IMG/VR virus record: IMGVR_UViG_3300005527_000008
Coordinates: 1-47,051 of that record
Origin: a virus
DNA: 47,051 bases
Direction: 5' to 3' (one strand)
The notes beneath the pieces were generated by a model. That model did not search any database, was not told where the DNA came from, and saw only the letters and a list, made by a program, of their open reading frames with translations. A program made the position numbers and the translations under genes. The first letter of the stretch is position 1. The number at the start of each line of letters is the position of its first letter. Of the stretch, positions 4,452 to 33,440 are shown one piece after another.

Positions 4452-6287
4452 ATGACAAAGCGTAACGTCGATAAATTCATAGAAGCGATGCAACAGGATG
4501 GCCTTATTCCTCCCCCTAATATACAGGCCGATGGTGCATTCCATCGCTTTCCAGGTATAGGGAAGGGACCGAAGAACACGGCCGGTTGGTATGTATTAAA
4601 TGACGACTATGGGGCCTATGGTGATTATAGCAGCGACCTTAGCAAAGGTTGGAGTGATACAACCGCCCCAGCGACCCCCATTGAAAAGAAAATACGCGAC
4701 CAAAAGATAGCCGCCTCACAACGTCAAGCAGCTGATGACTTGGCAAAAAGCTATGAAGACGGTGCCATAAAGGCAGCTGCACAGTTTAGGATGTTCCCTC
4801 TCATAGGCGTATCGGCCTACCTAACCCGTAAAAAGATCGAACAAGATGGATCCCTCGGCGTCAGATTCGGTAAAGATGAGGGAGATGAAGTCTTCATCGC
4901 CGTTCCAAGATACGATATAGACGGTAAGCTCTGGTCTTTCGAAAAGATATATGAAGATGGACGCAAAAGCTCCTTCAAAGGGGGAAGGAAAAAGGGCTGT
5001 TTGCATCAGCTAGGGACTATTGACCCTGGTGCCACTATATACGTAGCAGAAGGGTTCGCGACCGCCTACAGCATCCATAAAGCGACCTCTAAGGGCGTGT
5101 TTATAACATTCGGCATCGGTAATCTAGAAGAGGTTACGTCTGCCATTAAAAAACAGTGGCCCAATAATCCCATAATCATCGCAGGGGACCTTACAGATAA
5201 GGACAAAACAACCAAGATCGCCGATGATCTTAAATGCTCCGTCAGCTCCCCAGTGTTTAATAAAATATACGACGAATCAGATCCAAAAGACCGTAAGGAC
5301 TGGAATGATCTCTATTGTCTGGAAGGCATCGACGTCGTTAAACAACAACTCATGGTTGAGCCTGACGAGAATCTAGAGCCGCAGTGGAAAGTGTTATCCA
5401 CGCAAGACTTCTTGGATCAAAGTGTTAAACCAAGAGAATTTATTATGTTCCCCGTTGTACAACAGCAAAGCCTAACCATGATTTATGCAGGCCGAGGTGT
5501 AGGGAAAACCTTTGTCGCCCTCAATTTAGCTTTAGCTATTGCTAATGATGGTTCTATGTTCAATGGGTTGTGGAGAAGTACAAAGCCCGCATCCGTTCTT
5601 TATGTGGATGGAGAAATGCCCGTTGTCTCTATGCAAGAAAGAATCTCAAGCATATTGAGGAACAACCCTGAGTGCAGACTTAACTATTCTGACCGGCTTC
5701 ATATCTTTAGTAATGATAATCAAAAGAATTCAATCCCTGACCTTTCCACTAAAGAAGGGAGGGGTTTGATTGAAGCTCATTTGGAAGGCATCGATCTTGT
5801 CATCCTCGACAACATATCAACCTTGTGTCGCTCAGGGAAAGAGAATGACGCCGAAAGCTGGAACTCAATGCAAGAATGGCAAATCCACCTTAGGAGGCTG
5901 GGGAAATCAGTTCTATCCATCCATCATGCAGGGAAAGGGGGAGGACAACGAGGGACCTCAAAACGTGAAGACATCCTAGATACAGTCATATCCCTAAAAC
6001 ACCCCTCAGACTATGAACCCGAACAAGGGGCCAGATTCGAAGTCCATTACGAAAAGGCACGCGGGATTATGGGTGACGCCGTCAAAACATTCGAAGCAAG
6101 GCTATTCATGAATCAAGAAGGGATGAGATGGGAAACAAAAACCCTGGACGCCTCCCTCATGGAACAAGTCATCAAACTTAAAGAAGAAGGGTTGAGTGAA
6201 CGAAAGATTGCCGAGCTGTTAAATTCACCAAAAACTAAAGTCCACAGAATTCTGGAAAAAGCCAGAGAGAAAGGCTTGATCATTTAG
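4452..6287 (+). CDS. Replicative Toprim primase / RepA-type hexameric helicase, 611 aa
   Basis: A replication initiator/helicase of the phage RepA/AAA_25 kind. The Toprim half has VAEGFATAYS (about residue 198) and IIIAGDLTDKD (about residue 237, the DxD), with DWNDL near residue 295. A RecA-like ATPase follows: Walker A GRGVGKT (347-353), Walker B VLYVDGEMP (about 381-389), LVILDNIST and the SIHHAGKGGGQRGTS sensor loop. The C-terminus (about 571-611) has a resolvase-like HTH (LSERKIAELLNSPKTKVHRI), suitable for binding origin DNA. The iteron array begins 62 bp after the stop, supporting origin recognition by this protein. The start has AAGGTG six bases upstream. No polymerase gene exists, so host polymerase is probably used. 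Confidence 0.9.
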   Translation: MTKRNVDKFIEAMQQDGLIPPPNIQADGAFHRFPGIGKGPKNTAGWYVLNDDYGAYGDYSSDLSKGWSDTTAPATPIEKKIRDQKIAASQRQAADDLAKSYEDGAIKAAAQFRMFPLIGVSAYLTRKKIEQDGSLGVRFGKDEGDEVFIAVPRYDIDGKLWSFEKIYEDGRKSSFKGGRKKGCLHQLGTIDPGATIYVAEGFATAYSIHKATSKGVFITFGIGNLEEVTSAIKKQWPNNPIIIAGDLTDKDKTTKIADDLKCSVSSPVFNKIYDESDPKDRKDWNDLYCLEGIDVVKQQLMVEPDENLEPQWKVLSTQDFLDQSVKPREFIMFPVVQQQSLTMIYAGRGVGKTFVALNLALAIANDGSMFNGLWRSTKPASVLYVDGEMPVVSMQERISSILRNNPECRLNYSDRLHIFSNDNQKNSIPDLSTKEGRGLIEAHLEGIDLVILDNISTLCRSGKENDAESWNSMQEWQIHLRRLGKSVLSIHHAGKGGGQRGTSKREDILDTVISLKHPSDYEPEQGARFEVHYEKARGIMGDAVKTFEARLFMNQEGMRWETKTLDASLMEQVIKLKEEGLSERKIAELLNSPKTKVHRILEKAREKGLII

Positions 6288-10018: not shown

Positions 10019-10645
10019 ATGAATATTAAACTAACCGCGACTACCCTTATTATACTATCAACTACTGCAGCACTGTCGAACGAAGGCGCCTACGTAGGTG
10101 GGTTTCTAGGGCACAATAACTTTCGTGATGAATTCGCAATACGCTCAACTGAACACTCAAAAAAAGTTAAAAATACTGAGCACAATCTAGGTTATGGTCT
10201 GTTCGCTGGTTACGGTAAGAAGATTAACGATTCCTATGTCGGTATTGAAGCAGGTTTATCTAACGGATACCCAAATAAGCGGCATTCCATGGTGGGACAA
10301 CGCCCACATAACCCCGAAGGTTGGAAATACCAAAAGGGTGTCGTGATGTCAATCTCCCCTCGAGTCGGTTACTTCATCAACAGCGAATACATGGTCTATT
10401 CAAAACTTGGCATCGAAAGAAGTAAAGATAAAGCCATTCACTACTTGTATAACCTACGCCCCATGTCCTATTCAAAAACCGTCACAAATTTAGTTCCAGG
10501 CGTTGGAATTGAAAAGGTATCCGCCAATACAAGCGTAAGGCTCGAGTACTCACGTGATTTCGGGAAGAAAATTACTATGAATAAGGATCTCGCTCTTGGT
10601 TATACCAATCAACAAATCAAAGCAGGGTTCACGGTCAAGATATAG
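10019..10645 (+). CDS. Outer-membrane beta-barrel protein (Lom/Omp25-like moron), 208 aa
   Basis: A signal peptide (residues 1-20, ending AALS) precedes GAYVGGFLGHNNF, the common first strand of small outer-membrane porin/opacity-type barrels. Alternating polar/hydrophobic strands follow (YGLFAGYGKK, YVGIEAGLS, MSISPRVGYFI, YMVYSKLGIER, TVTNLVPGVGIEKV, TSVRLEYSRDFG, QQIKAGFTVKI), consistent with an eight-stranded barrel. The final residue is Ile rather than the usual aromatic. Phage-borne barrels such as lambda Lom alter the host surface during lysogeny or infection; superinfection blocking or host adhesion is the inference here. The gene is divergent from terL, lacks a clear ribosome-binding site and adjoins an IS630-type HTH gene, so it looks like a moron acquired by transfer. 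Confidence 0.85.
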   Translation: MNIKLTATTLIILSTTAALSNEGAYVGGFLGHNNFRDEFAIRSTEHSKKVKNTEHNLGYGLFAGYGKKINDSYVGIEAGLSNGYPNKRHSMVGQRPHNPEGWKYQKGVVMSISPRVGYFINSEYMVYSKLGIERSKDKAIHYLYNLRPMSYSKTVTNLVPGVGIEKVSANTSVRLEYSRDFGKKITMNKDLALGYTNQQIKAGFTVKI

Positions 10646-13260: not shown

Positions 13261-15714
13261 TTGAATCGTCAGAACACACAAGAAGAACCACAAGAATTCG
13301 ATTTCTCACAGGGTCCAGACGGACCAGAGATGGTTAATGGCGCTCAGGTTATGCAAACGCCCGATGGGGGCGCTATCGTTGACTTCCAGCCAAGTTATGG
13401 GAAACCATTCGAAGGAACGCACCAAGAGAACTTAGCAACCGTCCTAGAAGAAATGCAGATGGCAACCATCGCCGCTACTCTTCTCGACTCAATTGAAGAC
13501 GATATTGATTCCCGCTCTGAATGGGAAAACATGCTTAAGGAAGGCATTGAGCAGTTAGGCCTTAAGACTGAGAAGAAAGAGTTTCCATTTAAGGACGCTT
13601 CAAACATCTATTCCTCCGCCTTCATGCAATCGTTGTTATCATTCGTAGCAACGGCGCGTAGCGAGCTCTTACCTCCCCAAGGCCCTGTTAAGATATCCAT
13701 CGTTGGGAACAGCAATACACAGATAGAAGATCAGTCTGATCGTGTCCAGAAATGGATGAACTACTTCCTTACAGAGATAGCAGAAGAATACTATACCGAT
13801 ACTGAACAAGCATTAATGTGGTGCGGCCTTTATGGTTCAGTCTTTAAGAAGACGTACTTTGACCCCGTTCTAAACCGACCAACATCTCTTTTTATAAAGC
13901 CTCAAGACTTCGTTGTTAATTACGGTGCTTCTTCCCTTAATACTGCGACTAGAGCGACAGAGATTATCCACCTAACCAAGCGCGAGATAAAGATCCGGCA
14001 GGCATCTGGGATGTATCGTGACATTATGATCCATCCTCAAGATGATATCATGTCCGATCAATCACCAATCGAAGAGCAGATCAACAAGATCAGTGGTATT
14101 GAGCCTTCTAACTTTGAATACAATGACGAATACGAGCTTTATGAATGTCACTGCGATCTAGATATCCCTGGAATAGAACATAAGGACGAGAACGGGGAAG
14201 ATACAGGCATCCCATTGCCCTATATCGTCACGCTAGACGTGAAAAGCCGCAAGGTCCTATCTATATATAGGAACTGGGAAGAAAACGATCCACACTACAA
14301 GAAAATCAACCACTTTACTCATCTGTTGTTCTTAACAGGGCTGGGGTTCTATGGCTATGGATTGGCGCATATAGCAGGGGGATCTGCAAAAGCTGCGACT
14401 ATCCTACTTCGACAGATCATGGACGCTGGAATGCTTTCAAACTTCCCAGGTGGTTTACGAACAAAAGGGATGAGATTAACAGACAATAACCTAAGAGTAG
14501 GGCCAACAGAGTTTATTGAAGTCGAGACGGGTGGGTTACCTATTGATCAGGCTGTAATGATGATGCCGTACAAAGAGCCATCTGCAACGCTTTATAACCT
14601 GTATGAGAAATTAGAAGATAGCGTTTTAAAGTTGGCAGCAGCAGGCGACGCGCCATTAGCAGATTTCAATCCTAATGCGCCCGTAGGAACAACCCTAGCG
14701 TTGCTAGAGCAATCACATAAGGTCCAGAGCAGCATTATTAGGCGATTACACCAGGCGTTTAGAAACGAATTTAAGCTCCTTTTTAAACTCTTTAGTAAGT
14801 GTCTTCCTGATTCTCCGTACCCATTTAATGTAGTCGGAGAACAAACCGCTGTTATGCGTTCTGACTTTTCTGATCAATTGAACATCGTCCCTGTTTCAGA
14901 TCCAAATCTAAGTAATTCTACACAAAGATTGATAACTTGGGAAGCCATCAGCAGAACAGCCAATGAACATCCAGAGCTTCACAATATGCGTGAGGTTGTT
15001 AAGAAGTTCTATGAAGCGCTTAAGGTGCCTGACATAGATAGCATTTTGCTGCCTGCCCCAGAGGACGCAAAACCACTTGACCCCATCTCAGAGAATCAGA
15101 ATGCAATGACAGGAAAGCCATTAAAGGCAGGCCTTGATCAAGATCATGATTCTCATATGGCTGTGCATGGGCAGATACTCCAAGACCCTGCAATAGCTCA
15201 ATCGAATCCTCAATTGGCGCAGACACTTCAAGCTCATATTCAAGAACATATGGCCTTAAAGTATCTAATCCAAATGCAACAGGCTCTTCAATTCCAGATG
15301 CCCGAAGACCCATCGCAAATCCCTCCTGAGATGCAGAACCAGATTGCCATGGCGGCGGCTCAGCAGATTCAACAACGACAACAGCAACAGCAAGAACAGC
15401 AGCCACAACCTATAGACCCTGCGGCCGTCATGATGAAGGATGTTGAGGTAAAGGCTATGGGGATCCAAGAAACGGCTAAGGCGAACGAAGCTAAGAATCA
15501 ATTGGAGATGCAGAAAATGCAGCATAACTTCGAGCTTAGACAGGCGGAGCTTATGCAAAAGCAGCAAGAGATGGACCATAAGAATCAAATGGACCGAATG
15601 AAGTTAGAGATAGATCAGTACAAGATGAACATGCAGCAGATGCAAAAGGAGCAAGAACTATTCTTGAAAGAACAAGAATTCATGAATAAAAAAACTGGAT
15701 TTGACTTGTCGTGA
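13261..15714 (+). CDS. Portal protein, 817 aa
   Basis: Dodecameric head vertex through which DNA enters and leaves. The order (unknown small genes, portal, scaffold, capsid) and the conserved ASNIYSSAFMQSLLSFVATARSELLPPQGPVK region identify the large podovirus-type portal; ATTLLALLEQ-like VGTTLALLEQSHKVQSS occurs near residue 480. The C-terminus is unusual: a Gln-rich stretch around residues 700-718 leads into a long charged, Met/Gln-rich coiled coil (about 725-812), reminiscent of an extended portal barrel. The start is TTG, supported by the continuous N-terminal reading and a GAG eight to nine bases upstream; ATG 13330 is the alternative. Confidence 0.9.
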   Translation: MNRQNTQEEPQEFDFSQGPDGPEMVNGAQVMQTPDGGAIVDFQPSYGKPFEGTHQENLATVLEEMQMATIAATLLDSIEDDIDSRSEWENMLKEGIEQLGLKTEKKEFPFKDASNIYSSAFMQSLLSFVATARSELLPPQGPVKISIVGNSNTQIEDQSDRVQKWMNYFLTEIAEEYYTDTEQALMWCGLYGSVFKKTYFDPVLNRPTSLFIKPQDFVVNYGASSLNTATRATEIIHLTKREIKIRQASGMYRDIMIHPQDDIMSDQSPIEEQINKISGIEPSNFEYNDEYELYECHCDLDIPGIEHKDENGEDTGIPLPYIVTLDVKSRKVLSIYRNWEENDPHYKKINHFTHLLFLTGLGFYGYGLAHIAGGSAKAATILLRQIMDAGMLSNFPGGLRTKGMRLTDNNLRVGPTEFIEVETGGLPIDQAVMMMPYKEPSATLYNLYEKLEDSVLKLAAAGDAPLADFNPNAPVGTTLALLEQSHKVQSSIIRRLHQAFRNEFKLLFKLFSKCLPDSPYPFNVVGEQTAVMRSDFSDQLNIVPVSDPNLSNSTQRLITWEAISRTANEHPELHNMREVVKKFYEALKVPDIDSILLPAPEDAKPLDPISENQNAMTGKPLKAGLDQDHDSHMAVHGQILQDPAIAQSNPQLAQTLQAHIQEHMALKYLIQMQQALQFQMPEDPSQIPPEMQNQIAMAAAQQIQQRQQQQQEQQPQPIDPAAVMMKDVEVKAMGIQETAKANEAKNQLEMQKMQHNFELRQAELMQKQQEMDHKNQMDRMKLEIDQYKMNMQQMQKEQELFLKEQEFMNKKTGFDLS

Positions 15715-17196: not shown

Positions 17197-17502
17197 ATGA
17201 TTCTAAAGAAATTCGTAGACGACTTAATGGATGATCTACAAACCAAGCTAAACGATGTAGCCGTCCCTCTCAATACTATTCTCCACGAACAAGTCGGTAA
17301 ATATCACCACGGTATTGGCGTTATCCAAGGCCTCAGAGTAGCAGCAGACTCGGCGCAAGACCTTTGGAAGAAATACGTAAGCGGAGATAGAGACGAGCCC
17401 TCACAAGGCATGCCTCAAGCCCCCCTACAACCCGAAATGCCCCTAAAAGCAAACGTTCCAGGTGTAACACCTGAAATCTTCGATGCTGAGTACAATGTTT
17501 AA
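17197..17502 (+). CDS. Hypothetical protein, 101 aa
   Basis: Helical N-terminal two-thirds, then a proline-rich tail (MPQAPLQPEMPLKANVPGVTP). Not recognised. The start is ATG 17197 with TAGGAA seven bases upstream rather than the in-frame TTG six bases earlier. First gene after the promoter; it overlaps the GroES-like gene by 8 nt, so it may help in head assembly. Confidence 0.75.
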   Translation: MILKKFVDDLMDDLQTKLNDVAVPLNTILHEQVGKYHHGIGVIQGLRVAADSAQDLWKKYVSGDRDEPSQGMPQAPLQPEMPLKANVPGVTPEIFDAEYNV

Positions 17503-17923
17503 TTTATTTAGGAAGCCAAAGACTCCCATCATGAATCAAGACGAACTTATTAAACAAGCCCTCGACGTTGATCACCTCTCAGACCTCGTAGACCTTCGAA
17601 GCAGAACACTTCTCCTTCAGATCTATAAGGTCGAGGAAGTCACACGGGGTGGCATCATCATGCCTTCATCGGTTATCGATAGCTCAAAATTCGATAACCG
17701 GATTGGACGTGTTCTCAGTATAGGACCTCATTCCTACGACGATATAGACTACTACCCTTCAGGCCCACTCTGTGCGGTTGGTGAATGGGTCGTCTATTGG
17801 AGGCATGACGCATCCCTCCTCACCATTAACAAAATCGATTGCGCTATCTTGCCTGCGAACAAAGTCATGTTCGCCACCAAGATGCCTGAGCTAATCGATA
17901 CCAGCTATCACGTAGGGAAATAA
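17495..17923 (+). CDS. GroES-like co-chaperonin, 142 aa
   Basis: The Cpn10 fold is recognisable: RTLLLQIYKVEEVTRGGIIMPSS holds the mobile loop with GGIIM, matching the GGIVL tripeptide that docks on GroEL. FDNRIGRVLSIGP is the roof strand; CAVGEWVVYWRHDASLLTI and CAILPANKVMFAT close the barrel. Host GroES is about 95 aa; this one has an N-terminal extension of about 35 residues. As with T4 gp31, it would cap host GroEL to help fold the capsid protein made from the same operon. ATG 17495 is preferred; ATG 17531 is an alternative. Confidence 0.85.
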   Translation: MFNLFRKPKTPIMNQDELIKQALDVDHLSDLVDLRSRTLLLQIYKVEEVTRGGIIMPSSVIDSSKFDNRIGRVLSIGPHSYDDIDYYPSGPLCAVGEWVVYWRHDASLLTINKIDCAILPANKVMFATKMPELIDTSYHVGK

Positions 17924-19638: not shown

Positions 19639-19676
19639 ACTGATCACTCAGATTGTTTTTATTTTTAGGAGGCAAA

Positions 19677-20549
19677 ATGTCTTACGGTATTAATGCTCCT
19701 GTCGGGTTCCGCCCAACTTCTTATGTTAGCGGTGCTCCTTGGACAGGCAAATTCTCATACTACTTAATCGAAGGCGGTTACAATACTTCAATTTTCCAAG
19801 GCGACTTGGTTAGTCGAGTGGCCGGCGCAAACGGGTATATTAAAAAACTTCTACCAACTGAAATTAATGGTGGAAACGGAGCCCCCGCGCTCGGTGTTTT
19901 CTTAGGTTGCGAATATGTAACCCCAGGAGCTCAATCAAATATCACTCCTGTAACAAATTCTCCTTATTGGCCTGCTAACCAGGCCATCAAGGCAGGGACA
20001 GTTGTTTACGCGAAAGTTATTGATGACTCAGAAGTCATCTACGATGTCCAAACAAACGGCACCGTAAACTTGGCGTCTATGGGCGGGAATGCTTCCTTTG
20101 CCCTAGGAGCAGGAAGTACAGTCACAGGTCTTTCAGGCGAAGTGATAGATGTGGGCACAATTTCTAAGGCCGCCTCATTCCGCGCATCAGGTGCTAGCAC
20201 TTTAACAGGTACCGTAAACCTAGTTATCCCAGCTGTAGGCATTACCGCAAACTCATTAGTTATGTTAACTCGTAAAACCGCAGGCGGTGGCGCAGGGAAC
20301 TTAACAATCACTATTCAACCTGGTGTTTCTTTCACAGTTGTCTCGAGCAACGGGGCGGATAACTCTGCATTCAATTATCAAGTCCTCCCGGGCACCGATG
20401 ACAATAGCTTCCTGCCTTTGAAGTTGCTTTATGCAACCCAAGTCCCAGGAAACACATTTGACCCAATCACAGGTGCTGGAATTTTGAATGGCAACATCTC
20501 TGTAATCTTAAATAACAGCGCTTATCGCGTTGGCACACAAGGAGTTTAA
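19677..20549 (+). CDS. Capsid-associated (decoration-type) protein with inserted beta-sandwich module, 290 aa
   Basis: The N-terminal part (MSYGINAPVGFRP, GDLVSRVAGANGYIKKLLP, LGVFLGCEYV) and the C-terminal part (LPLKLLYATQVPGN, NISVILNNSAYRVG) read like one phage head protein usually encoded beside the capsid gene. Residues about 166-236 look like an insertion: a Gly/Ser/Thr-rich beta-module with ITANSLVML and IQPGVSFTVVSSNGAD. The same module occurs in the 376-residue protein downstream and at the ends of two fibres. The start ATG 19677 has a near-perfect AGGAGG. Decoration role inferred from position. Confidence 0.75.
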   Translation: MSYGINAPVGFRPTSYVSGAPWTGKFSYYLIEGGYNTSIFQGDLVSRVAGANGYIKKLLPTEINGGNGAPALGVFLGCEYVTPGAQSNITPVTNSPYWPANQAIKAGTVVYAKVIDDSEVIYDVQTNGTVNLASMGGNASFALGAGSTVTGLSGEVIDVGTISKAASFRASGASTLTGTVNLVIPAVGITANSLVMLTRKTAGGGAGNLTITIQPGVSFTVVSSNGADNSAFNYQVLPGTDDNSFLPLKLLYATQVPGNTFDPITGAGILNGNISVILNNSAYRVGTQGV

Positions 20550-20554
20550 TCACT

Positions 20555-21457
20555 ATGGCAACAACTACTTCAGATATTGCCGCCCTCTTGCGTCCAGGCT
20601 TAGCGGCGGTTATTGGCGACTACAACACTTATGAAGACGAATGGAAATCGATTTATTCGCACCATGTGTCAGATAAGCAAGTTGAATACGAAGTCGAAAT
20701 GAAACTTTTGAGCATTGCTCAAATGAAACAAGAAGGCGGTTCAGTCTCTTATGACAAGATGGCGCAACGCTTCATTACTTCGTACCTACACCAATACTTC
20801 GGTATCGGCTTTATCTTAACAAGACAAGCTTTGCTAGATAACTTGTACAAGGACAGATTCCCAATGGCTGTAACGTCATTGAAAGACTCTCTGCGCCAAG
20901 TTAAGAACATCCAAGCAGCGAACCTGTTTAACAACGGTTTCAACCCTGGAGCTCCAATCGGTGACGGTCAGCCTCTATACTCTGTCAACCATCCTATCGA
21001 TGGCGGTATTGTATCGAATACTTTCGTTGTCCCCGCGCAGCTTAATGAAACATCTCTCGAAGATGCGATCACAAACATTAGCTTATTCAGAAACGCAGCT
21101 GGTTTGTTGGTTAAGAATACCCCGAAGCGCTTAATCGTTCCGCCTTCATTGCAGTTTACTGCAAGCAGGTTGCTGAACTCTAAGTATCGCGTAGGAACAG
21201 CTAACAACGATATCAATGCAATCTACCATGACAATTATATCTCTCAAGGATACATGGTAAATCACTTCTTAACATCTCCAACAGCTTGGTTCATCCAAAC
21301 TGATAACTCGAATGGATTTAAATACTATGAACGCGAACCCTTAGACATCGACATTTTCACTGACATTGACACAGATAACCTAAAAGTTCGGGCAATCGAG
21401 CGTTACTCATTCGGTAACAGCGACTTCCGTTCAACTTTCGGTTCTCAAGGTGCATAA
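20555..21457 (+). CDS. Major capsid protein, 300 aa
   Basis: Reads as an HK97-fold phage capsid subunit of the Mu gpT-like kind: MATTTSDIAALLRPGL, then YDKMAQRFITSYLHQYFGIGFILTRQAL, GDGQPLYSVNHP (loop before the P-domain), LIVPPSLQFTASRLLNS and a C-terminal DIDTDNLKVRAIERYSFGNSDFRSTFG. No separate protease or long N-terminal delta domain is visible, consistent with use of a separate scaffold. AAGGAG stands before the ATG. It follows the decoration-type gene after 5 bp. The GroES-like protein of the preceding operon may assist its folding. Confidence 0.85.
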   Translation: MATTTSDIAALLRPGLAAVIGDYNTYEDEWKSIYSHHVSDKQVEYEVEMKLLSIAQMKQEGGSVSYDKMAQRFITSYLHQYFGIGFILTRQALLDNLYKDRFPMAVTSLKDSLRQVKNIQAANLFNNGFNPGAPIGDGQPLYSVNHPIDGGIVSNTFVVPAQLNETSLEDAITNISLFRNAAGLLVKNTPKRLIVPPSLQFTASRLLNSKYRVGTANNDINAIYHDNYISQGYMVNHFLTSPTAWFIQTDNSNGFKYYEREPLDIDIFTDIDTDNLKVRAIERYSFGNSDFRSTFGSQGA

Positions 21458-23567: not shown

Positions 23568-24617
23568 ATGGCCACAAGTGGATCATATGACTTCGGGGAC
23601 ATCCAAGCAGACGATATTATCAGGGAAGCTTATGAGCGGTGCGGCATTGTTTCGGACCTTCTAGACGGGCTTAAAATTCAATCAGCTCTTAGCTCACTCA
23701 ACTTCATGCTCACTCAATGGGTTAATCGTGGACTAAACCTCTGGACAATCGAAAAAGATATGATCCAGATCAATGCAGGGCAGTCTACATATTCTCTTCC
23801 GCCGGCTACAGTTGACATCCTAGAACTTACAGCAGCCCAGATAACGCGTCTCAATGCGTCGGGGACAGCTACTTCAAGTACGGGCACAGCTAACAACGCT
23901 TTCGATGGGAACCCCGCTACAGCGTGCACACAGACAGCCGCTGATGGGTGGATAGAATGGAATTATGGACCTACAGACTTTCAGAATATTCAGTATGTCG
24001 GCATTCAATCAAATGAAACGACACGTTACACAATATCTATAGAATATTCCTATGACGGCATTATCTTTATAGATGCATATCCAAATCCAGATAATGTCTT
24101 ATATCCATTAGGTCAGCAGATATGGTATGTCCTTCCTGCCCCTGTAAATGCCCCTATATGGCGCATAAAAGAGACCAATGGTGGCACATTAAACATACAA
24201 GAAGTTTATTTCTGTATTCCTAATGTATCGCGTCTCATGACCCGCATATCACGAGAAGAATACATAGCCATTGCAAATAAGAGTCGGCAAGCGACAGCAA
24301 GTAGTTATTACATAGATAGGACAAAGAACCCCGTCCTTAACCTATGGCCAACTCCCGATACCACATACCCATACATGATCTACAACAGAGCACGTCAGGT
24401 TCAAGACATAGGGACGCTCCTAAACAACGTTGATGCCCCTCAAAGGTTCTATGAGGCTATTGTTGCAGGGTTAGCCTCTCGCTTAGCAGTAAAATTCGCA
24501 ATGGATAGATACCCGATTCTAGCTGATTTAGCAGAGAAGAGTTATATGCAGGCGGCTCAGCAGGACGTAGAAAAAGTGCCTATGAGAATCCAGCCTAATT
24601 ACATAAGCTATACTTAA
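23568..24617 (+). CDS. Head-tail adaptor (P22 gp4-like) with inserted F5/8 type C (discoidin-like) domain, 349 aa
   Basis: The N-terminal half (ADDIIREAYERCGI, SALSSLNFMLTQWVNRGLNLWTIEK, YSLPPATVDILE) and C-terminal half (SRLMTRISREEYIAI, SSYYIDR, LNLWPTPDTTYPYMIYNRARQVQDIG, ASRLAVKFA) are the known short-tail adaptor that sits below the portal. Between them, residues about 88-217 do not belong to that fold. They carry NNAFDGNPATACTQ, GWIEWNYG, YVGIQSN, TISIEYSYDGIIF and WRIKETNGGTLNIQEVYF, the signatures of F5/8C galactose-binding-like domains. The insertion falls in the adaptor's surface loop, so virions may display a glycan-binding collar. Confidence 0.85.
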   Translation: MATSGSYDFGDIQADDIIREAYERCGIVSDLLDGLKIQSALSSLNFMLTQWVNRGLNLWTIEKDMIQINAGQSTYSLPPATVDILELTAAQITRLNASGTATSSTGTANNAFDGNPATACTQTAADGWIEWNYGPTDFQNIQYVGIQSNETTRYTISIEYSYDGIIFIDAYPNPDNVLYPLGQQIWYVLPAPVNAPIWRIKETNGGTLNIQEVYFCIPNVSRLMTRISREEYIAIANKSRQATASSYYIDRTKNPVLNLWPTPDTTYPYMIYNRARQVQDIGTLLNNVDAPQRFYEAIVAGLASRLAVKFAMDRYPILADLAEKSYMQAAQQDVEKVPMRIQPNYISYT

Positions 24618-24685: not shown

Positions 24686-24958
24686 ATGCTCCGTCATAAA
24701 GGCAAATACACAAAGATTGATAGAAACAACCCCCTCGCCGTCGCTCGTTGCGACTATAGCGGATTGCTCTGTCGTCATGCCGATTTGATAAAGCAAATGG
24801 AATACAAAGGGACAGCACTCGTATGGACAGGGTTTTGGGTCAATAAAGTATTCGCAGACAAGCCAAACCCTCAAAATCTAGTCCCAGTCCTATTGCCAGA
24901 TCCATACCCAATCTACAGCCCGCGGCCCGATGACTCTAAAAATCCACCAAATTCATAA
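24686..24958 (+). CDS. Conserved small phage protein with CDYSGxL motif, 90 aa
   Basis: The pattern KGKYTKIDRNNPLAVARCDYSGLLC, KQMEYKGTALVWTGFWV and ADKPNPQ is one I recall as a recurrent short protein next to adaptor and fibre genes of short-tailed phages. The two cysteines and His (CDYSGLLCRH) could form part of a metal site. Function unknown. The Pro-rich tail is probably disordered. Confidence 0.75.
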   Translation: MLRHKGKYTKIDRNNPLAVARCDYSGLLCRHADLIKQMEYKGTALVWTGFWVNKVFADKPNPQNLVPVLLPDPYPIYSPRPDDSKNPPNS

Positions 24959-24970
24959 GGAATTAAAAGA

Positions 24971-25777
24971 ATGGCTCTTCCTGAAACCTCAGCATACGTC
25001 GTATCTCAAAGAAGCAATGATGACCCCGTAAACTCCCGCGTCATACAAGGGCAACGAGGCATTGTTATTTCAGACAGCGGCCCAGGTGGATCTATTCTAG
25101 TAGAGCCGACCCAAATGATCGGATCTATCGAAGATATTCTAACCGTAGGGTTCCTCATTAGAGAAGAAGGGGATGTGGCCGATACACGCATTTTAACAAC
25201 TGACGGCTCTATCAATATCACCAATGCTGACGGTGCGAACGGAAATCCAATCCTATCGGTTGCCGCTGGCGGGACAGTGCAGAAAGTGAATGTAGCCGTT
25301 AACGGGACCACTATCGGCAATAGATCGACTTTAAATTTTATCCCCAATGGTGGAATTGGAATCACTGCAACTGATAATGGCGGATCGAATTCAATTGATA
25401 TCGCTCTGTCAGCCTCAGGTGGTGGTGGCGGCGGTAGCGGAACAGTCACCTCTGTAGGCATTACAAATCTCGGCGGCGGTTTAACAATCACGAACTCTCC
25501 CATTACAACAAGTGGGGACATCAACATTGAGATAGATAACCCGGGCGGTGGGGCCCCCTCCGATGCTGAATACATTATTGGAACAGCAGATGCAGGACTA
25601 CCCAATGCTCAAGCTCTAGGGCCCCTATCTACTATTGAATACTCGGGCAGCATACTCATTAACAACACGAATGGCACAACAGGGACACTTGGATATGTCC
25701 CATTTGTAGATGGGTCTTCGGACAAACCATTCATTTTGGGCAACAATATTATGCTCCCATACTTCACACCAGCTTAA
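24971..25777 (+). CDS. Tail fibre-type protein, 268 aa
   Basis: Glycine/threonine/isoleucine-rich beta-structure. A folded N-terminal region (MALPETSAYVVSQRSNDDPVN, GQRGIVISDSGPGGS) may attach it to the tail; then fibre-like repeats follow (ILTTDGSINITNADG, GGIGITATDNGGSNSIDIALS). After a GGGGGGSG hinge comes TVTSVGITNLGGGLTITNSPITTSG, a common tail-fibre motif. First of three consecutive fibre genes. Trimeric assembly inferred. Confidence 0.75.
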   Translation: MALPETSAYVVSQRSNDDPVNSRVIQGQRGIVISDSGPGGSILVEPTQMIGSIEDILTVGFLIREEGDVADTRILTTDGSINITNADGANGNPILSVAAGGTVQKVNVAVNGTTIGNRSTLNFIPNGGIGITATDNGGSNSIDIALSASGGGGGGSGTVTSVGITNLGGGLTITNSPITTSGDINIEIDNPGGGAPSDAEYIIGTADAGLPNAQALGPLSTIEYSGSILINNTNGTTGTLGYVPFVDGSSDKPFILGNNIMLPYFTPA

Positions 25778-25788
25778 GGATAAAAATC

Positions 25789-26829
25789 ATGGCACCTGCA
25801 CCAAATTTTGCTATCGGCAATAATATTCTTACCGCGAGTCCGGGACCTTTAGGATCCATAGGGATAGGATTTAATATTATGACATCCCTGGCAACCGGGG
25901 TCGAAAATATCGGGATTGGGATAAACTCACTCACAACGAACGAATATGGCTCTTATAATATTGCGATTGGGAATGGAGTCCTTAATAGCAACACAACAGG
26001 CGCTGCCAACACAGCGGTTGGAAATTCAGCCCTTAACTCGAACTCCACTGGGGCAGAGAATACCGCGATTGGGTATAGTTCGCTTTCATCCAGCGGCAGT
26101 GGGTATAAAAATGTAGCGATCGGCTATAATTCTCTAAAATTTGCTTACACCACTATAGAATGTACGGCGGTAGGTGCCGACTCATTAATACAAATGGAGG
26201 GAGAGGGGAATACGGCTATTGGGTCGTTTAGTGGTTCCGGCACACAGTCTAACTACTGTACATTTTTGGGGGCATCTACTCTCGCTTCTTCTGGAGTTGA
26301 AAACTCTGTTGCTATCGGACACTCCTGCATAGTAACGACGAATAACTCAGTTGTTCTGGGTAATAGCGGCTCTCAAAGTTCTTTCGTCGGGATAGGGACA
26401 TCCTCTCCAGAATACGCCCTCCATATTGGCTCAGATAGTGGCCTAGATCCTGAAATCTTCATGAACCCAACTGGTGGCACTACGCCACCGCCTGGGACAG
26501 GGATTGTATTAAGTGCTTTTGAAAATTCATTGAATGTGTCTAGCCCATCGGCAGGGCGCTCAGGAAGGGCTGTAACAGCTAGAACCGGGGGGGCAGATGA
26601 CACCTGTGGCAGGGCCACCCTTAACGGAACCGTTAACGTTGTCATCAGCACAACAGCCGTTAGAACAGATTCTATAATCTTATTAACCCCGATCCTTACA
26701 GGGACGCTGGGCGGCATAATAATCGTCGACAGCATTAATGACGGTGTTTCATTCAGCGTTCATAGCAGTCAAGTCGCAGATGACACAGATTTCTTCTGGC
26801 TGATCGTTAATCCGACACAATTAATATAA
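25789..26829 (+). CDS. YadA-head-like fibre protein, short version, 346 aa
   Basis: The first 170 residues are left-handed beta-roll repeats of the trimeric autotransporter head kind (IGIGFNIMTSL, NIGIGINSL, NTAVGNSALNSNSTGAENTAIG). A neck-like SSFVGIGTSSPEYALHIGS follows, then a linker and a C-terminal beta-sandwich module (about 273-342: CGRATLNGTVNVVI, TDSIILL, GVSFSVHSSQVADD). The next gene has the same order but far more repeats, so the two are tandem paralogs. The C-terminal module is shared with capsid-region proteins. Receptor binding inferred. Confidence 0.85.
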   Translation: MAPAPNFAIGNNILTASPGPLGSIGIGFNIMTSLATGVENIGIGINSLTTNEYGSYNIAIGNGVLNSNTTGAANTAVGNSALNSNSTGAENTAIGYSSLSSSGSGYKNVAIGYNSLKFAYTTIECTAVGADSLIQMEGEGNTAIGSFSGSGTQSNYCTFLGASTLASSGVENSVAIGHSCIVTTNNSVVLGNSGSQSSFVGIGTSSPEYALHIGSDSGLDPEIFMNPTGGTTPPPGTGIVLSAFENSLNVSSPSAGRSGRAVTARTGGADDTCGRATLNGTVNVVISTTAVRTDSIILLTPILTGTLGGIIIVDSINDGVSFSVHSSQVADDTDFFWLIVNPTQLI

Positions 26830-26845
26830 TAAAAGGAAAAAGATA

Positions 26846-29275
26846 ATGAACCCAGCTGATTTTGCCATCGGATATAACTGCCTCTTAAACTCAACGGGTT
26901 TGAACTCAAATGTAGCCATCGGATTCGACATAATGACCTCAGTAGCGCCTGGGGCATCTAATGTAGCAGTAGGAAGAAGCATCCTTCTCGAAAACGAGGG
27001 GAGCGGAAACGTAGCCCTAGGGATTGAGGTATTGAACTCAAATACTACTGGCGCCGATAATATCGGCATAGGGAACATAGCACTATTCTCAAATATCTCC
27101 GGCAGCCGAAACGTAGCAATTGGCGCTCAAAGTTCCGTAGCAAGCATATCAAACAGTGATAATGTGGGGGTGGGCACTGGCTCACTTCTTAACATGAGGG
27201 GAGACCAAAATATAGGAGTTGGCACGAGTGCATTGCACGGGTCAGCGGTACAGGAGGATAACACAGGGTCGAATAACGTGGCTGTAGGGCATGAAGCTCT
27301 ACTTAGCAACGCCGCAGGAAGTTCCAATATTGGCATAGGGGACATAGCACTATTCTCAAATATCTCCGGCAACCGAAACGTAGCAATTGGCGTTCAAAGT
27401 TCCGTAGCAAGCATATCAAACAGTGATAATGTGGGGGTGGGCGGTGAATCACTTCTTAACATGAGGGGAGACCAAAATATAGGAGTTGGCACGCGTGCAT
27501 TGCGCGGGTCAGCGGTACAGGAGGATAACACAGGGTCGAATAACGTGGCTGTAGGGCATGAAGCTCTACTTAGCAACGCCGCAGGAAGTTCCAACATAGC
27601 GGTCGGGCCTTCATCTCTACTTAACAACACAACGGGCGATTTCAACGTAGCGGTCGGGTCTTCATCTCTAAATAGCAACACGATAGGCAGTAATAACGTA
27701 GCGGTTGGGAGACAGTCTCTACAGTACAATACAGAGGGCAATGCCAACATAGCGGTTGGGACACAATCTCTACAGAGCAACACGACGGGCAGCTCCAACA
27801 TAGCGGTTGGGTTTGTATCTCTATTTAGCAACACGACGGGCAGCTCCAACATAGCGGTTGGGTCTTCATCTCTTACTAGCAACACGACGGGCAGTACCAA
27901 CTTAGCGGTCGGGCCTTCATCTCTATTTAACAACACGACGGGCAATTCCAACGTAGCGGTTGGAGGTTCATCTCTATTTAGCAACACGACGGGCGATTTC
28001 AATTCAGCTTTTGGGCCTTCATCTCTTACTAGCAACACGATAGGCAGTAATAACGTAGCGGTTGGAACTTTATCTCTATTTAGCAACACGATAGGCAGTA
28101 ATAACATAGCGGTTGGGAGACAGTCTCTACAGTACAATACAGAGGGCAGCTCCAACGTAGCGGTTGGAGGTTCATCTCTAAATAGCAACACAACGGGCGA
28201 TTCCAACATAGCGGTTGGAAATTCATCTCTAAGTAGCAACACAACAGGCACTGCCAACATAGCGGTCGGGCCTTCATCTCTAAATAGCAATACAGAGGGC
28301 GGTTTCAACATAGCGGTTGGAAATTCATCTCTATTTAGCAACACAACGGGCAGTATCAACATAGCGGTCGGGCCTTCATCTCTACTTAACAACACAACGG
28401 GCGATTTCAACTTAGCGGTCGGGCCTTCATCTCTAAGTAGCAACACGACGGGCGGTAATAACATAGCGGTTGGGTCTTCATCTCTTACTAGCAACACGAC
28501 GGGAACGGATAATGTGGCTTTGGGGCTGAATAGTTTAAACGGGAATGTTACCGCGAACGAAAGCGTGGCGATCGGTAATAATGCCCTACTAGCATCAGAT
28601 ACAATGAATAATACCGCAGTGGGCACGCGCGCCTTAAACACTCTTACGAGTGGTAGTAGTAACGTCGCTTTGGGGTGGGAGGCTGGTGCAACGGCAACAA
28701 ACCTCCAGGGCTGCACATTATTGGGCCCTCAAACCTCTGCTACTAACGGTATAAACAATTCCGTTGCCATTGGGGCCAGCGCTTTTGTAAATACCTCTAA
28801 TTCTATTTCTTTAGGGGTAGGGTCGGCGGGAGTGAGCAGCTTTGTCGGGATAGGTAACCCATCTCCTGCTTATGCCTTGGATATAGGGACATTTAACTCT
28901 CTTCCTCCTGAAATCAAGTTGCAAAATGACGCTACCACGCCTGCAGCACCTGTATCAGGAACAATAATAAGAACTGTAAGCAACGCTCTCCGTGTAGAAA
29001 GCGGTTCTCTTTCTAGAACCGGTATAGTCGTTACAGCGAATAACACTGGAGCAGCTCAAACCTGTGGTAGGGCTACTCTTGCTTCTGGGAATGTCACAGT
29101 CGCATCAACAGCTGTCACGGCTAACTCTATAATCGTAGCTACAAAACACTTCCCATCGAGTGACAATGATGGTGTTTTAAGGATCAGTGCTATCGTCCCC
29201 GGCGTCTCGTTTACGCTTACTTCTCACAAAGGAGGAGACACGTCTACAGTCAGCTGGATAATGGTGAACCCATAA
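26846..29275 (+). CDS. Long YadA-head-like repeat fibre, 809 aa
   Basis: Dominated by beta-roll repeats. An N-terminal set of varied units is partly duplicated (89-residue block twice, about residues 73-250). Eighteen 17-residue units follow (about 249-554) with consensus xNIAVGxSSLxSNTTGx, then less regular units, an ALDIG neck (about residue 677) and the C-terminal beta-sandwich module (about 740-809: CGRATLASGNVTV, TANSIIVAT, GVSFTLTSHKGGD). The fold would be a long, stiff trimeric adhesin. The regular repeats also leave the reverse strand free of stops, which creates a false 440-codon ORF. Expected role: host receptor binding. Confidence 0.88.
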   Translation: MNPADFAIGYNCLLNSTGLNSNVAIGFDIMTSVAPGASNVAVGRSILLENEGSGNVALGIEVLNSNTTGADNIGIGNIALFSNISGSRNVAIGAQSSVASISNSDNVGVGTGSLLNMRGDQNIGVGTSALHGSAVQEDNTGSNNVAVGHEALLSNAAGSSNIGIGDIALFSNISGNRNVAIGVQSSVASISNSDNVGVGGESLLNMRGDQNIGVGTRALRGSAVQEDNTGSNNVAVGHEALLSNAAGSSNIAVGPSSLLNNTTGDFNVAVGSSSLNSNTIGSNNVAVGRQSLQYNTEGNANIAVGTQSLQSNTTGSSNIAVGFVSLFSNTTGSSNIAVGSSSLTSNTTGSTNLAVGPSSLFNNTTGNSNVAVGGSSLFSNTTGDFNSAFGPSSLTSNTIGSNNVAVGTLSLFSNTIGSNNIAVGRQSLQYNTEGSSNVAVGGSSLNSNTTGDSNIAVGNSSLSSNTTGTANIAVGPSSLNSNTEGGFNIAVGNSSLFSNTTGSINIAVGPSSLLNNTTGDFNLAVGPSSLSSNTTGGNNIAVGSSSLTSNTTGTDNVALGLNSLNGNVTANESVAIGNNALLASDTMNNTAVGTRALNTLTSGSSNVALGWEAGATATNLQGCTLLGPQTSATNGINNSVAIGASAFVNTSNSISLGVGSAGVSSFVGIGNPSPAYALDIGTFNSLPPEIKLQNDATTPAAPVSGTIIRTVSNALRVESGSLSRTGIVVTANNTGAAQTCGRATLASGNVTVASTAVTANSIIVATKHFPSSDNDGVLRISAIVPGVSFTLTSHKGGDTSTVSWIMVNP
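27061..27594. repeat. 267-bp near-identical tandem duplication inside the fibre gene
   Basis: 27061-27327 and 27328-27594 differ at only a handful of bases and keep frame (89 codons). The low divergence suggests a recent duplication or gene conversion. Confidence 0.85.
27590..28507. repeat. Eighteen tandem 51-bp units inside the fibre gene
   Basis: Each unit encodes 17 residues with AAC(ATA/GTA)GCGGT(T/C)GG and AGCAACACGACGGGC nearly invariant at the DNA level. Variation is concentrated in the codons after the AVG glycine and before the Asn-Thr-Thr turn. The array can expand or contract in frame. Confidence 0.9.
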
Positions 29276-29969: not shown

Positions 29970-30611
29970 ATGGCATTCGAACTTACATATCAAACTCTTT
30001 ATGATACAATTTTATCGTATTTAGAGCGGGATGACTTAGACGTTAAAGATAATATTCCCGTCTTTATCATGCTCGGCCAAAGACGCATTTCCAAGGATTC
30101 TAAGACACTTGGCCTTGAGGTCTATATGACTGGCAACTTTACCCCCGGGAATGGTGTTCTTATAAAACCCGCCCGATGGAGGAGTACGATTACTTTCAAC
30201 GTAGGGAGTAATGGCCCTGGATTTAACACCAGGAATCAATTGCTTCTTCGTAGTTATGAGTTCTGCCGCGAATATTGGCCTGATGACACAGAGACAGGAT
30301 TTCCTAAGTATTTTTCTGATTACGGGTACAACAACTGGTTAATTGTTCCTACGCCCGATATAGCCTACCCATTTGAGGTGGCTTATTCAGAGCAATCACA
30401 GCCATTGGATCTAACCAATCAGACAAACTGGCTTACAGAGAACGCACCTGAATTGCTTATTTATGCTTCTCTTTTGGAAGCGATGATCTTTGTTAAAGAC
30501 GATGAGCGTGTTCAAACTTACAAACAGTTCTATCTCGAAGCGCTTATCGGTCTTAACGCTGAAGATAAGGGCCGTATCACCGATCGTTATTCGAAAAGGA
30601 CAAAAGATTAA
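29970..30611 (+). CDS. Tail adaptor protein (SU10-adaptor-like), 213 aa
   Basis: Matches the conserved short-tail adaptor pattern: LYDTILSYLERDD, FIMLGQRRISKDSKTLGLEVYMTG, KPARWRSTITFNV, an RSYEFCREYWPD segment, and a C-terminal NAPELLIYASLLEAMIFVKDDERVQTYKQFYLEALIGLNAEDK. Members join head connector to tail hub. It lies before another appendage gene and the hub gene. The stop overlaps the following start (TAATG). Confidence 0.8.
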   Translation: MAFELTYQTLYDTILSYLERDDLDVKDNIPVFIMLGQRRISKDSKTLGLEVYMTGNFTPGNGVLIKPARWRSTITFNVGSNGPGFNTRNQLLLRSYEFCREYWPDDTETGFPKYFSDYGYNNWLIVPTPDIAYPFEVAYSEQSQPLDLTNQTNWLTENAPELLIYASLLEAMIFVKDDERVQTYKQFYLEALIGLNAEDKGRITDRYSKRTKD

Positions 30612-31888
30612 TGTCATATACAAATATTTTTGGTGGTACACCTATACAGCCCTCAGATGTTAGTTACCGCGAAATTACACTAACAGAGAATATAACTCTT
30701 GTTTGGCCCTCATCATTCGTTGACACAACAGAAGTCGTCGCAAAGTTAATGGACGTAATATCAAATGGAGATATATTTGACATCAATATGCCCTCAGCAA
30801 TGCAGGTCTCTGTCGGCGAAAGCGTTATATATAAGAATATGGGTGTTCAGGCATTCACTGTATATGACGCCGGTGGCGGAGAGATTATCCAAATAGATCC
30901 TGGAGAAGCATTTTATATATATGTCAAAGACAATACGACTGACGCTGGGATTTGGGGAGTCACGCAGTATGGGACAGGGGCATCCACCGCAGACGCTTAC
31001 ACTTTAGAAGGGTTTGGGTTAACTACCCTAGCTGCAACACTCAATACGGAATTCAGTGTTGTCGAAAAAGATGACGACTATACAGTTAGTGCATTGGACC
31101 GAGCAACTCTCTTTAAATTTGTGGGAGGACAAGCAGCATTTACGTTGCCCTCCCCCGCAGGTGCAGGTATTGGTAACGGGTTCTTCTTTTCGATTCATAA
31201 CATTAGTGCAGCAGGTCAATTAACAATCATTCCTACGGGAGTCGGCGTTCTTATAGATGGCTTCGCAAACTTTATCATGAGGCCTACAGAATCATCTTTC
31301 TTCGTGACAGATGGGGTAAATTGGTTCTCCCTTGGATATGGAAAATCTACGTTATTTACAGTAGGAATCCTAAATAAAGTTGTTATTGGCCCTGGACCAG
31401 TTGTCCTGACAACGGCCGAAGCAAACCTTTTAGTCCATCAATTCTCAGGTAACCTTACCGGAAACGTTCAGATCACCTATCCTAATGTTAACGCTCAATA
31501 TTATGTGAAGAATGAGACTATAGGCGGTTTCAGCCTCATTCTAACAATAGCTGGGTCTGCGAACCCGATAACTCTCATCCCTGATGCATCTCTCATCCTT
31601 TATTCGGATGGGACTGATCTCCATAGTATCCCGACTGAAGCGCCGGGCTCTGTGGCTTTCGCAGATGGAACAGCAGCACAACCATCCATTCGTTTTGTCA
31701 GTGACCAGACAACGGGTATTTATTTAGATTCTCTAGGCAATCTCGGGATCTCTGCGTCAGGTAATCCAACCGTTATTATTGATGGCAATGATTTGGCAAG
31801 CTTTGTCCCTATAAATTCTTTTAATGGAGGGTATCTTGATTATGGGCGTAATCTCTATTCTTTAATACGAGCTTACGACAATGGCTGA
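30611..31888 (+). CDS. Tail appendage/fibre-type protein, 425 aa
   Basis: Beta-rich with repeated jelly-roll-like segments: FDINMPSAMQVSVGESVIYKN, ATLFKFVGGQAAFTLPSP, FFFSIHNISAAGQLTIIP, AQYYVKNETIGGFSLILTI, each followed by a glycine-rich turn. FADGTAAQPSIRFVSDQTTGIYLDS near residue 350 is a motif common before the tips of phage tail fibres. Coupled to both neighbours by overlaps (TAATG upstream, 8 nt downstream). Likely another receptor-contact protein. Confidence 0.75.
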   Translation: MSYTNIFGGTPIQPSDVSYREITLTENITLVWPSSFVDTTEVVAKLMDVISNGDIFDINMPSAMQVSVGESVIYKNMGVQAFTVYDAGGGEIIQIDPGEAFYIYVKDNTTDAGIWGVTQYGTGASTADAYTLEGFGLTTLAATLNTEFSVVEKDDDYTVSALDRATLFKFVGGQAAFTLPSPAGAGIGNGFFFSIHNISAAGQLTIIPTGVGVLIDGFANFIMRPTESSFFVTDGVNWFSLGYGKSTLFTVGILNKVVIGPGPVVLTTAEANLLVHQFSGNLTGNVQITYPNVNAQYYVKNETIGGFSLILTIAGSANPITLIPDASLILYSDGTDLHSIPTEAPGSVAFADGTAAQPSIRFVSDQTTGIYLDSLGNLGISASGNPTVIIDGNDLASFVPINSFNGGYLDYGRNLYSLIRAYDNG

Positions 31889-33440
31889 TCATAAAATATT
31901 ACCCCTAAAGCCCACTCCTGGCATTCAAAGAGACCTGACACAATTCGACAGCACGGGCTACATAGACGGGCAATGGGTAAGATTCTATAAAGGATACCCT
32001 CGTAAAATAGGCGGATTTCAGCTCTTAACGCCAGGATCGACAGAAATCACAAGAACTCTGTTCTCTGTTAAGAAATCCGAATCATTCGACTTATATATGG
32101 GGAGAGAATCAGGGGTTACGGTCACTAATTATCTTGTTTCAGGAGCAGCATCCCCAGAGATAGACAGGACGCCTTTAGACTATGTTCCTCATGAGAATAA
32201 CCAATGGTCGTTTGAACTATTCAACACCCAAGTAGATGGCGTACCTACTCTATTAATTTTTGCTCACGTAGCTCACAAAGCGCACGACATTAGCAACACG
32301 ACAAATGGTGAACTTTATTATGGGGATGTTAATAGCACGGCTCCCTTGACGCGAGTATATCAAGACTCTCCCACAAACTTAGTTCCTCTTATATATAATG
32401 GCGGCATCGTTGCTGTTCCTCCGTTCTTATTCGCGTACGGAAACGGGGGTGTTGTTTCGTGGTCAAAATCGGGAAATCCTCTTATGTGGGACGATGTCGA
32501 TATCGCATCCATCGCAGGAACGAAAATTGTTGCAGGGTGGCGAACAAGAGGGAGTACAGCCCCTACTGTATTATTTTGGTCATTAGATAGTCTTATCAGG
32601 GGGACATTTATTTCTGAGGATCTTGGGTTTAGCTTCAACACAATTGAAGATGATATATCAATATTATCTCCTAGAAGCATCATTAAATACGATCAGGTCT
32701 ATTATTGGGTAGGAGCGGATCAATTCTATTACTACAACGGCGTGGTCCAAAGCATCACGAATACATTTTCGACAGATTGGTTTTTTAACAATTTAAATAA
32801 AGAACAATCAGCGAAAGTGTTTGGAGTCAGCATTCGGCGATACAATGAAATTTGGTGGTTCTACCCTCGTGGAAACGCTACTGAATGTACACACGCTATT
32901 ATATTCAACGTTAAGGAAAATATTTGGTATGACACACAGCTTCCTAGATCCCATGGGATATCTGCGAATTTATATACGTATCCGATCATGGCGGATTCGA
33001 CAACGGTTATTAACCTTGACGCAGAAGTTGACCCAGAAACTAACCAGCGGCCGATAACATATCCTATATGGACCCATGAAAAGGGCAATAACCAGATTCT
33101 GTTTAATCAAATATTCGCGATCAGATCATCATTTGAGACAAATATTATGGATCTGTTCGAACAGAATGGAAATGACAGGCAATTACGTATTCGAAGGATT
33201 GAACCGAACTTCATCCAAACAGGGGATATGAACGTTAGGGTTATCAATCGCGGGTTCTCTCAGGGAGACCTGCAGCCTTCTCCCCTATATACGTTTAGCC
33301 CAGATCAATCAAAAATTGACATGAATGAGATGGGGCGTCTTGTAAGTCTTAAGTTCACGAGCGATACCCAGGACGGTTTCTATCAAATGGGCAAGGTTCT
33401 TTTGAATATCGCCGAGGGTGACGTGAGACCGAAGAGTTAG
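31881..33440 (+). CDS. Tail hub/nozzle protein (P22 gp10 / T7 gp12-like role), 519 aa
   Basis: The N-terminal LKPTPGIQRDLTQFDSTGYIDGQWVRFYKGYPRKIGGFQ is highly typical of the beta-propeller tail hub of short-tailed phages. Blades are suggested by repeated aromatic motifs (YWVGADQFYYYNG, RRYNEIWWFYPRG, NIWYDTQLPRSHG). The C-terminal part (RRIEPNF, GFSQGDLQPSPLYTFS, RLVSLKFTSDTQDGFYQMG) closes the ring. It forms the distal tube closed until ejection. Length normal. Confidence 0.85.
   Translation: MADHKILPLKPTPGIQRDLTQFDSTGYIDGQWVRFYKGYPRKIGGFQLLTPGSTEITRTLFSVKKSESFDLYMGRESGVTVTNYLVSGAASPEIDRTPLDYVPHENNQWSFELFNTQVDGVPTLLIFAHVAHKAHDISNTTNGELYYGDVNSTAPLTRVYQDSPTNLVPLIYNGGIVAVPPFLFAYGNGGVVSWSKSGNPLMWDDVDIASIAGTKIVAGWRTRGSTAPTVLFWSLDSLIRGTFISEDLGFSFNTIEDDISILSPRSIIKYDQVYYWVGADQFYYYNGVVQSITNTFSTDWFFNNLNKEQSAKVFGVSIRRYNEIWWFYPRGNATECTHAIIFNVKENIWYDTQLPRSHGISANLYTYPIMADSTTVINLDAEVDPETNQRPITYPIWTHEKGNNQILFNQIFAIRSSFETNIMDLFEQNGNDRQLRIRRIEPNFIQTGDMNVRVINRGFSQGDLQPSPLYTFSPDQSKIDMNEMGRLVSLKFTSDTQDGFYQMGKVLLNIAEGDVRPKS

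Follow-up and report, generated by a model that had tools for sequence, protein, structure and literature searches.

Here, we report that a virus genome encodes a podophage-type portal-tail adaptor into which a discoidin-like domain has been grafted. The window, that is, the whole stretch of DNA analysed, is a 47,051-base virus record, and the open reading frame at 23568..24617 on the + strand encodes a 349 aa protein of the SU10/podophage portal-tail family carrying an F5/8C-type insert. This anatomy, an adaptor with a discoidin insert, is secure, while the mechanism is not, and the finding is a variant of two known kinds, the podophage adaptor and the module-decorated virion ring. A sequence-only reading of the same DNA had proposed the architecture, which we confirmed, as the frame is present and the Pfam family SU10_adaptor scores above its cut-off.

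The SU10_adaptor family (PF24175) matched the protein at 38.1 bits against a cut-off of 27 (E 2.9e-9), with the best stretch at residues 222-335. Matches in PHROGs were phrog_12985 (E 2.1e-24) and, on the adaptor N-terminus, phrog_637, 'head-tail adaptor Ad3' (E 7.8e-5). The full-length AF2 model, based on an alignment of 76 sequences, had a mean pLDDT of 90.7 and a pTM of 0.80, and was laid out as two helices, a beta-region at residues 61-276 and two helices, which is the SU10-type order, in which a dock-like beta-domain separates helix 2 from helix 3 and a C-terminal segment comes last. The N-terminal part of the core (23568..23840, +; AF2 secondary structure and family alignment) holds helices 14-24 and 34-54 and strands 61-67, 74-76 and 81-94, the last being the first arm of the dock hairpin. 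The inserted discoidin (F5/8C, CBM32-like) beta-sandwich, residues 92-218, occupies 23841..24221 (+; Pfam, AF2, VIA-align and profile against PDB), and the C-terminal part of the core (24222..24614, +; Pfam, AF2) supplies the second arm of the hairpin, the remaining beta-domain, helices 292-310 and 312-333, and a low-confidence tail. The nearest model in BFVD was a 350-residue protein of an uncultured phage, 38% identical over the full length, and chain d of the cyanophage A4 portal-tail structure (9k09_d) ranked fourth in a Foldseek search with the 349-aa model. Solved structures showed no sequence link to the adaptor at E <= 5 with phmmer or E <= 1 with a profile.

The insert is classed as an F5/8C fold, although we do not call it a member of Pfam PF00754. 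The limits given by the sequence-only reading, residues 88-217, proved correct to about 4 residues, with VIA-align giving 92/93-217/218 on CBM32 domains, and the signatures it had named, FDGNPATA, GWIEWNYG and EYSYDG, lie at residues 112-119, 127-134 and 159-164. F5_F8_type_C (PF00754) scored 20.2 bits over residues 98-170 of the whole adaptor, and the search with the insert alone did find the domain (23.0 bits, E 9.5e-5) but below the cut-off of 28.2. Across the whole record, PF00754 matched this insert only. The insert blocks had pLDDT values of 88-97, and the best structural neighbours of the predicted model were F5/8C and CBM32 domains, so that the proposed fold was borne out and no other fold was predicted. 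The best VIA-align match of the model was 4a42_B, the CBM32-6 of CpGH89 (Z 17.8, rmsd 1.9 A, 121/126 residues); matches down to about Z 16.8 were tied with it, among them 7d2a, the sugar-bound CBM32 of AlyQ. All 50 matches listed were carbohydrate-binding or F5/8C-like domains, or enzymes containing one. APC10 subunits and neuropilin also appeared among the structural matches. The F5/8C folds of APC10 and neuropilin act as protein binders. While the beta-sandwich is common to the insert and to CBM32 and F5/8C domains such as 4a42 and 7d2a, the insert is only 12-22% identical to them among the matches listed, has short loops and is part of a phage virion protein.

The hairpin that receives the insert in place of its turn lies after helix 2 and before helix 3, and its arms in the AF2 model are strands 81-94 and 208-223. 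According to PMC6702177 and PMC9509320, T7 and SU10 adaptors combine a helix bundle with a fibre dock and, at the C-terminus, an embracing segment. In SU10, loops of the dock extend radially and carry the long fibres; the P22 and Sf6 adaptors are without a dock. By its position relative to these published descriptions, the beta-domain would be the dock. Because the hairpin sits where SU10 and T7 have the fibre dock, the outward projection of the insert envisaged in the earlier reading is likely. A comparison of the hairpin with the SU10 fibre dock loop gave no significant hhalign match, the SU10 side being a single sequence, and the insert-bearing family as a whole had no significant hhalign link to the single SU10 gp11 sequence. 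The adaptors of SU10, T7 and P-SCSP1u are dodecamers according to PMC9509320, PMC6702177 and PMC10575957, and by analogy the inserted domains may form a ring of 12. The protein shares with SU10 gp11 and T7 gp11 (PF24175, 7z47) the two helices, beta-domain, two helices and C-terminal tail, and differs from them in that its dock hairpin holds a discoidin domain of 127 residues.

We found 15 matches to the adaptor among 50,697 phage records. Phage MW202545 carries the same insert at the same hairpin and Caulobacter phage RW a shorter one; the adaptors of CRP-901, DSL-LC04, HTVC023P and Pag-Yong1 have no insert, and that of HTVC027P has an insert which, by eye, is unlike F5/8C. IMG/VR was scanned with the MW202545 protein (289 relatives), the RW protein (178 relatives) and the adaptor core (at least 594 relatives), and the best 80 of each were taken. 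The F5/8C insert (F-type) was at the same hairpin in 80/80 of the best 80 of 289 from the MW202545 query, and a shortened insert (R-type) was present in 80/80 of the best 80 of 178 from the RW query. In total, 249 adaptors comprised 81 F-type, 81 R-type, 57 without insert and 30 long enough for other inserts, the last assigned by length and profile, with some read by eye; these counts omit the adaptor's own locus and its near-identical records (L001-L004), and they are not natural frequencies, since the queries bore the insert and the best 80 were taken. An earlier locus search had matched 252/253 loci. The position of the domain had been called unusual, a description to be qualified, since two large environmental phage clades carry it as a rule. 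No publication title on a discoidin domain in a phage adaptor or tail, or on F5/8C in a head-tail virion, was found in the literature, and a scan of genome contigs for a host found no relative.

The two kinds of insert are homologous (hhalign 98.6%, E 7e-16, 82 columns), the R-type being without the FDGN part, that is, the N-terminal part of the F-type. Among 16 diverse inserts, nine match PF00754 at E <= 0.1, and the R-type profile finds hexosaminidase domains that are F5/8C-like (E 4e-4). The model of one R-type adaptor (L109, pLDDT 83.4) keeps the discoidin sandwich, at Z 11-13 over 92-105 residues. Its core matched the adaptor chains of A4, LME-1, Carin-1, GP4 and KHP30 at Z 12.8-14.1, with A4 at 14.1, over the whole length with the insert skipped, 9k09_d covering model residues 9-320. 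The best core fold matches obtained through this model, the chains of A4 (9k09_d, also matched by the model of the F-type adaptor itself), GP4 (8jov), LME-1 (9efk) and Carin-1 (8ck1), are 193-216 residues long and differ from the insert-bearing proteins in being too short for a core plus a discoidin domain.

Wherever the profile resolves inserts of at least 15 residues, it places them at its positions 83, 88 and 96, and the sequences read showed further inserted segments in the loop before the hairpin and in a later loop after 'RPIQVW'. Three such segments of relatives (L175:754-1002, L197:2551-2793 and L186:654-926), found at this hairpin, close to it or in a later loop, are by eye unlike F5/8C, and a Pfam search of these three gave no match. 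Another adaptor, that of phage 023Pt_psg01 (L013:3602-4699), carries an N-terminal extension of about 120 residues that appears cupredoxin-like by eye.

The record also encodes a second, paralogous SU10-type adaptor of 213 aa (29970..30611, +), identified by Pfam (81.2 bits), PDB chains 9nwi_A and 7z47_A, and SU10 gp11, to which it is closer in sequence than the insert-bearing adaptor is. The two adaptor families are paralogous by hhalign (E 1.9e-22). The closest phage relatives of the second adaptor are in RW (47%) and MW202545 (43%), whose first adaptors both carry an insert, and a search with it for further relatives of the lineage returned only 4 near-identical records. RW and MW202545 are also closest for the 519-aa 'phage stabilization protein' at 31881..33440 (+; phrog_3287 and relatives), a putative nozzle whose presence points to a podophage-like tail, whereas the major capsid protein (20555..21457, +; Pfam, PHROGs and relatives) is closest to that of the insert-free DSL-LC04. 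In a tree of the core, the adaptor grouped with insert-free adaptors and not with the F- and R-type clade (SH-aLRT 100), while the 39 insert-bearing rows also formed one side of a branch of support 0. The first grouping may imply two separate gains of the insert, but the support-0 branch and a second adaptor and nozzle-like gene closest to insert-bearing phages make the picture a mixed one. The insert-bearing lineages may be one clade, and therefore their association with a gene order may be a single event.

Elsewhere in the window, the portal protein lies at 13261..15714 (+; phrog_1216, E 1.2e-37), and a Cpn10-like (GroES) co-chaperonin at 17483-17923 in the head gene cluster (22.2 bits against a cut-off of 21.1); CRP-901 has a Cpn10-like co-chaperonin annotated at the same place. 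ORF 10019-10645 encodes an OmpA-like outer-membrane beta-barrel (PF13505 E 7.8e-11, PF01389 E 3e-8), a phage-encoded outer-membrane protein that may serve surface remodelling or superinfection exclusion. A primase-helicase-like protein (AAA_25 and Toprim) is encoded at 4452-6287 and a RecT recombinase at 45224-46000.

Downstream of the insert-bearing adaptor, the order is a 90-aa gene, a 268-aa likely fibre gene, two repeat fibres, a 228-aa ORF and the second adaptor, 5.4 kb away. SU10 likewise has its adaptor gene gp11 followed by the long fibre genes gp12 and gp13. The 90-aa product (24686..24958, +) is homologous to that of a Cys-rich (CDGC) gene following the adaptor in an insert-free clade (phmmer E 5.5e-12 against L207 and 1.7e-8 against L209), and we would read its Cys pattern as zinc-ribbon-like. 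The 268-aa protein (24971..25777, +), positioned as SU10 gp12, is a likely proximal tail-fibre protein, with residues 46-146 matching a tail fibre from Synechococcus phage S-CBS4 (E 5e-3). The two fibre/tailspike ORFs of 346 and 809 aa (25789..29275, +; 25789-26829 and 26846-29275) contain repeated N-T-T-G-x-x-N-I-A-V-G units, which to us seem to resemble trimeric adhesin heads, and end in K1-lyase_C. This domain is also near the C-terminus of ORF 19653-20549, upstream of the capsid gene, and is thus shared by three ORFs.

This gene order suggested that the insert might be a required fibre dock. An ORF of at least 500 aa was among the first three downstream in 51/52 F, 34/49 R, 1/36 insert-free and 0/8 other-insert loci, a count from which loci with less than 3.5 kb downstream were dropped, in which the insert-free bin includes some other-insert adaptors, and in which a further bin ('other80', 3/4) mixes one other insert with mis-binned R-type. 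With stop-to-stop ORFs, one of at least 500 aa started within 2.5 kb downstream in 47/47 F, 34/47 R, 7/23 insert-free and 5/12 other-insert loci; it was missing in 13/47 R loci, and also in phage RW. The gap between the two adaptors, for those loci where the second was seen, was 164-938 bp in 48/50 insert-free loci and at most 969 bp in 29 other-insert loci, but 1537-7098 bp in 19 R loci (1423 bp in one more, L111), and the 5 F loci had 7144-7429 bp. L207 and L209, the two insert-free loci outside this range, pointed to a sister clade with insert-free adaptors in 80/80. In this clade the small Cys-rich gene comes after the adaptor; a fibre-like ORF comes next in 38/80 by motif and is also present in all 8 rows inspected of 32 others, and 10 are too short. 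Since insert-free adaptors of this clade also precede fibre-like genes, fibres attach without the insert; the fibre block tracks the wider lineage rather than the insert, and the insert therefore cannot be an essential dock for the fibres, nor is it the primary one.

The sequence-only reading had further supposed a ring of 12 sugar-binding sites at the neck. The canonical galactose site of CBM32-5 is made of His, Tyr, Arg, Asn and Phe, and both CBM32-1 and CBM32-6 lack this site and showed no binding when tested, as stated in PMC3313936. In a profile alignment with 7blg (CBM32 with galactose), whose aligned residues would by their pattern be its galactose ligands, Thr stands in place of the His in the insert family and the Arg/Asn loop is shortened, a comparison of the His and Arg/Asn positions by sequence alignment and not by superposition. 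Taking all His contexts in the 81 F-type inserts, that of the adaptor under study included, a His occurs somewhere in 62/81 and in the Arg/Asn loop in 0/81. The combination of His, aromatic, Arg, Asn and aromatic residues seen in canonical galactose sites is absent from the insert. With Thr at the His position, a short Arg/Asn loop that never holds a His and a shortened version that persists, sugar binding is unsupported: the insert, as judged from its residues, is not a canonical galactose lectin, and the case for a lectin is weak. F-type inserts keep, in 81/81, the FD motif and the C-terminal Glu, which we take to be the structural calcium site of the discoidin fold. The N-terminal third of the F-type insert, presumably the loop end of the fold, is more variable than the rest (mean entropy 1.02 against 0.72 bits; adaptor core regions, 0.40-0.76 bits).

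We tentatively favour, at somewhat less than an even chance, a structural role of the insert as a protein-protein module at the fibre base. Here, a discoidin-fold (F5/8C, CBM32-like) sandwich has been grafted into the hairpin turn of the fibre-dock-like beta-domain, each subunit of the presumed ring of 12 would bear one extra domain outside the neck, probably pointing outward, and the modules would brace the fibres or neck by protein contacts. The missing canonical sugar site, the persistence of the shortened version and the other segments at the same site in relatives are observations behind this preference, together with the fibre genes that usually follow insert-bearing adaptors and the protein binding by F5/8C folds elsewhere. 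Against it, the insert-free sister clade (80/80) also precedes fibre-like genes, a large ORF within 2.5 kb also follows some insert-free and other-insert adaptors, the variable N-terminal third would also fit changing surface ligands, and the tied top fold matches include the sugar-bound 7d2a.

A second, rather unlikely explanation is an accessory adhesin, in which discoidin domains on the ring would use a non-canonical site to attach to a glycan of the host surface and so add weak multivalent adsorption. CBM32 and CBM62 folds dominate the structural matches, and the more variable third lies at the loop end of this fold; however, the canonical galactose-site residues are absent, the domain persists in the R-type clade despite the loss of its N-terminal part, and CBM32-6, among the tied best matches, is reported as non-sugar-binding (PMC3313936). 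The evolved Dits of siphophages, described in PMC7291167, carry carbohydrate-binding modules in peripheral loops of a virion ring protein, as the adaptor carries its module fold here, and bind host cells, but the ring here is the portal-tail adaptor and not the tail tip, the module is different, and its sugar binding is putative.

Passive decoration, with a hairpin that tolerates beta-modules which have no specific partner and make the neck bulkier or more stable, is improbable. It would suit the 30/249 adaptors long enough for other inserts, beta-rich by eye where read and in the same or nearby loops, and the insert-free relatives are common (57/249). However, mean column identity of the insert is 70% among 16 F-type and 75% among 10 R-type sequences and the insert is in 80/80 and 80/80 scan loci, more than expected of a neutral passenger, albeit in scans biased by insert-bearing queries. 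It is similarly doubtful that the dock hairpin is a plug-in socket of the neck for discoidin, shortened discoidin and other beta-rich modules, whose discoidin form makes an adhesin ring, with a non-canonical site for a host polymer, while the fibres engage the receptor. An assembly chimera or misread frame fusing the adaptor with an unrelated gene is refuted for practical purposes by the single open frame, the continuous high-confidence AF2 model, three additional IMG/VR records that match part of the adaptor at 100%, and the homologous architecture, with the domain at the same place, in distant relatives such as MW202545 and many contigs; we found nothing in favour of a chimera.

The adaptor takes the idea behind the evolved Dit, a ring protein fitted with carbohydrate-module folds, beyond the tail tip to short-tailed phages and their portal-tail adaptor, and shows one hairpin of the adaptor ring repeatedly bearing additional domains in uncultured phages. 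Should the domain brace fibres, the adaptor type could help to predict fibre architecture; should it bind glycans, models of host range built on fibres only would miss a binding site.
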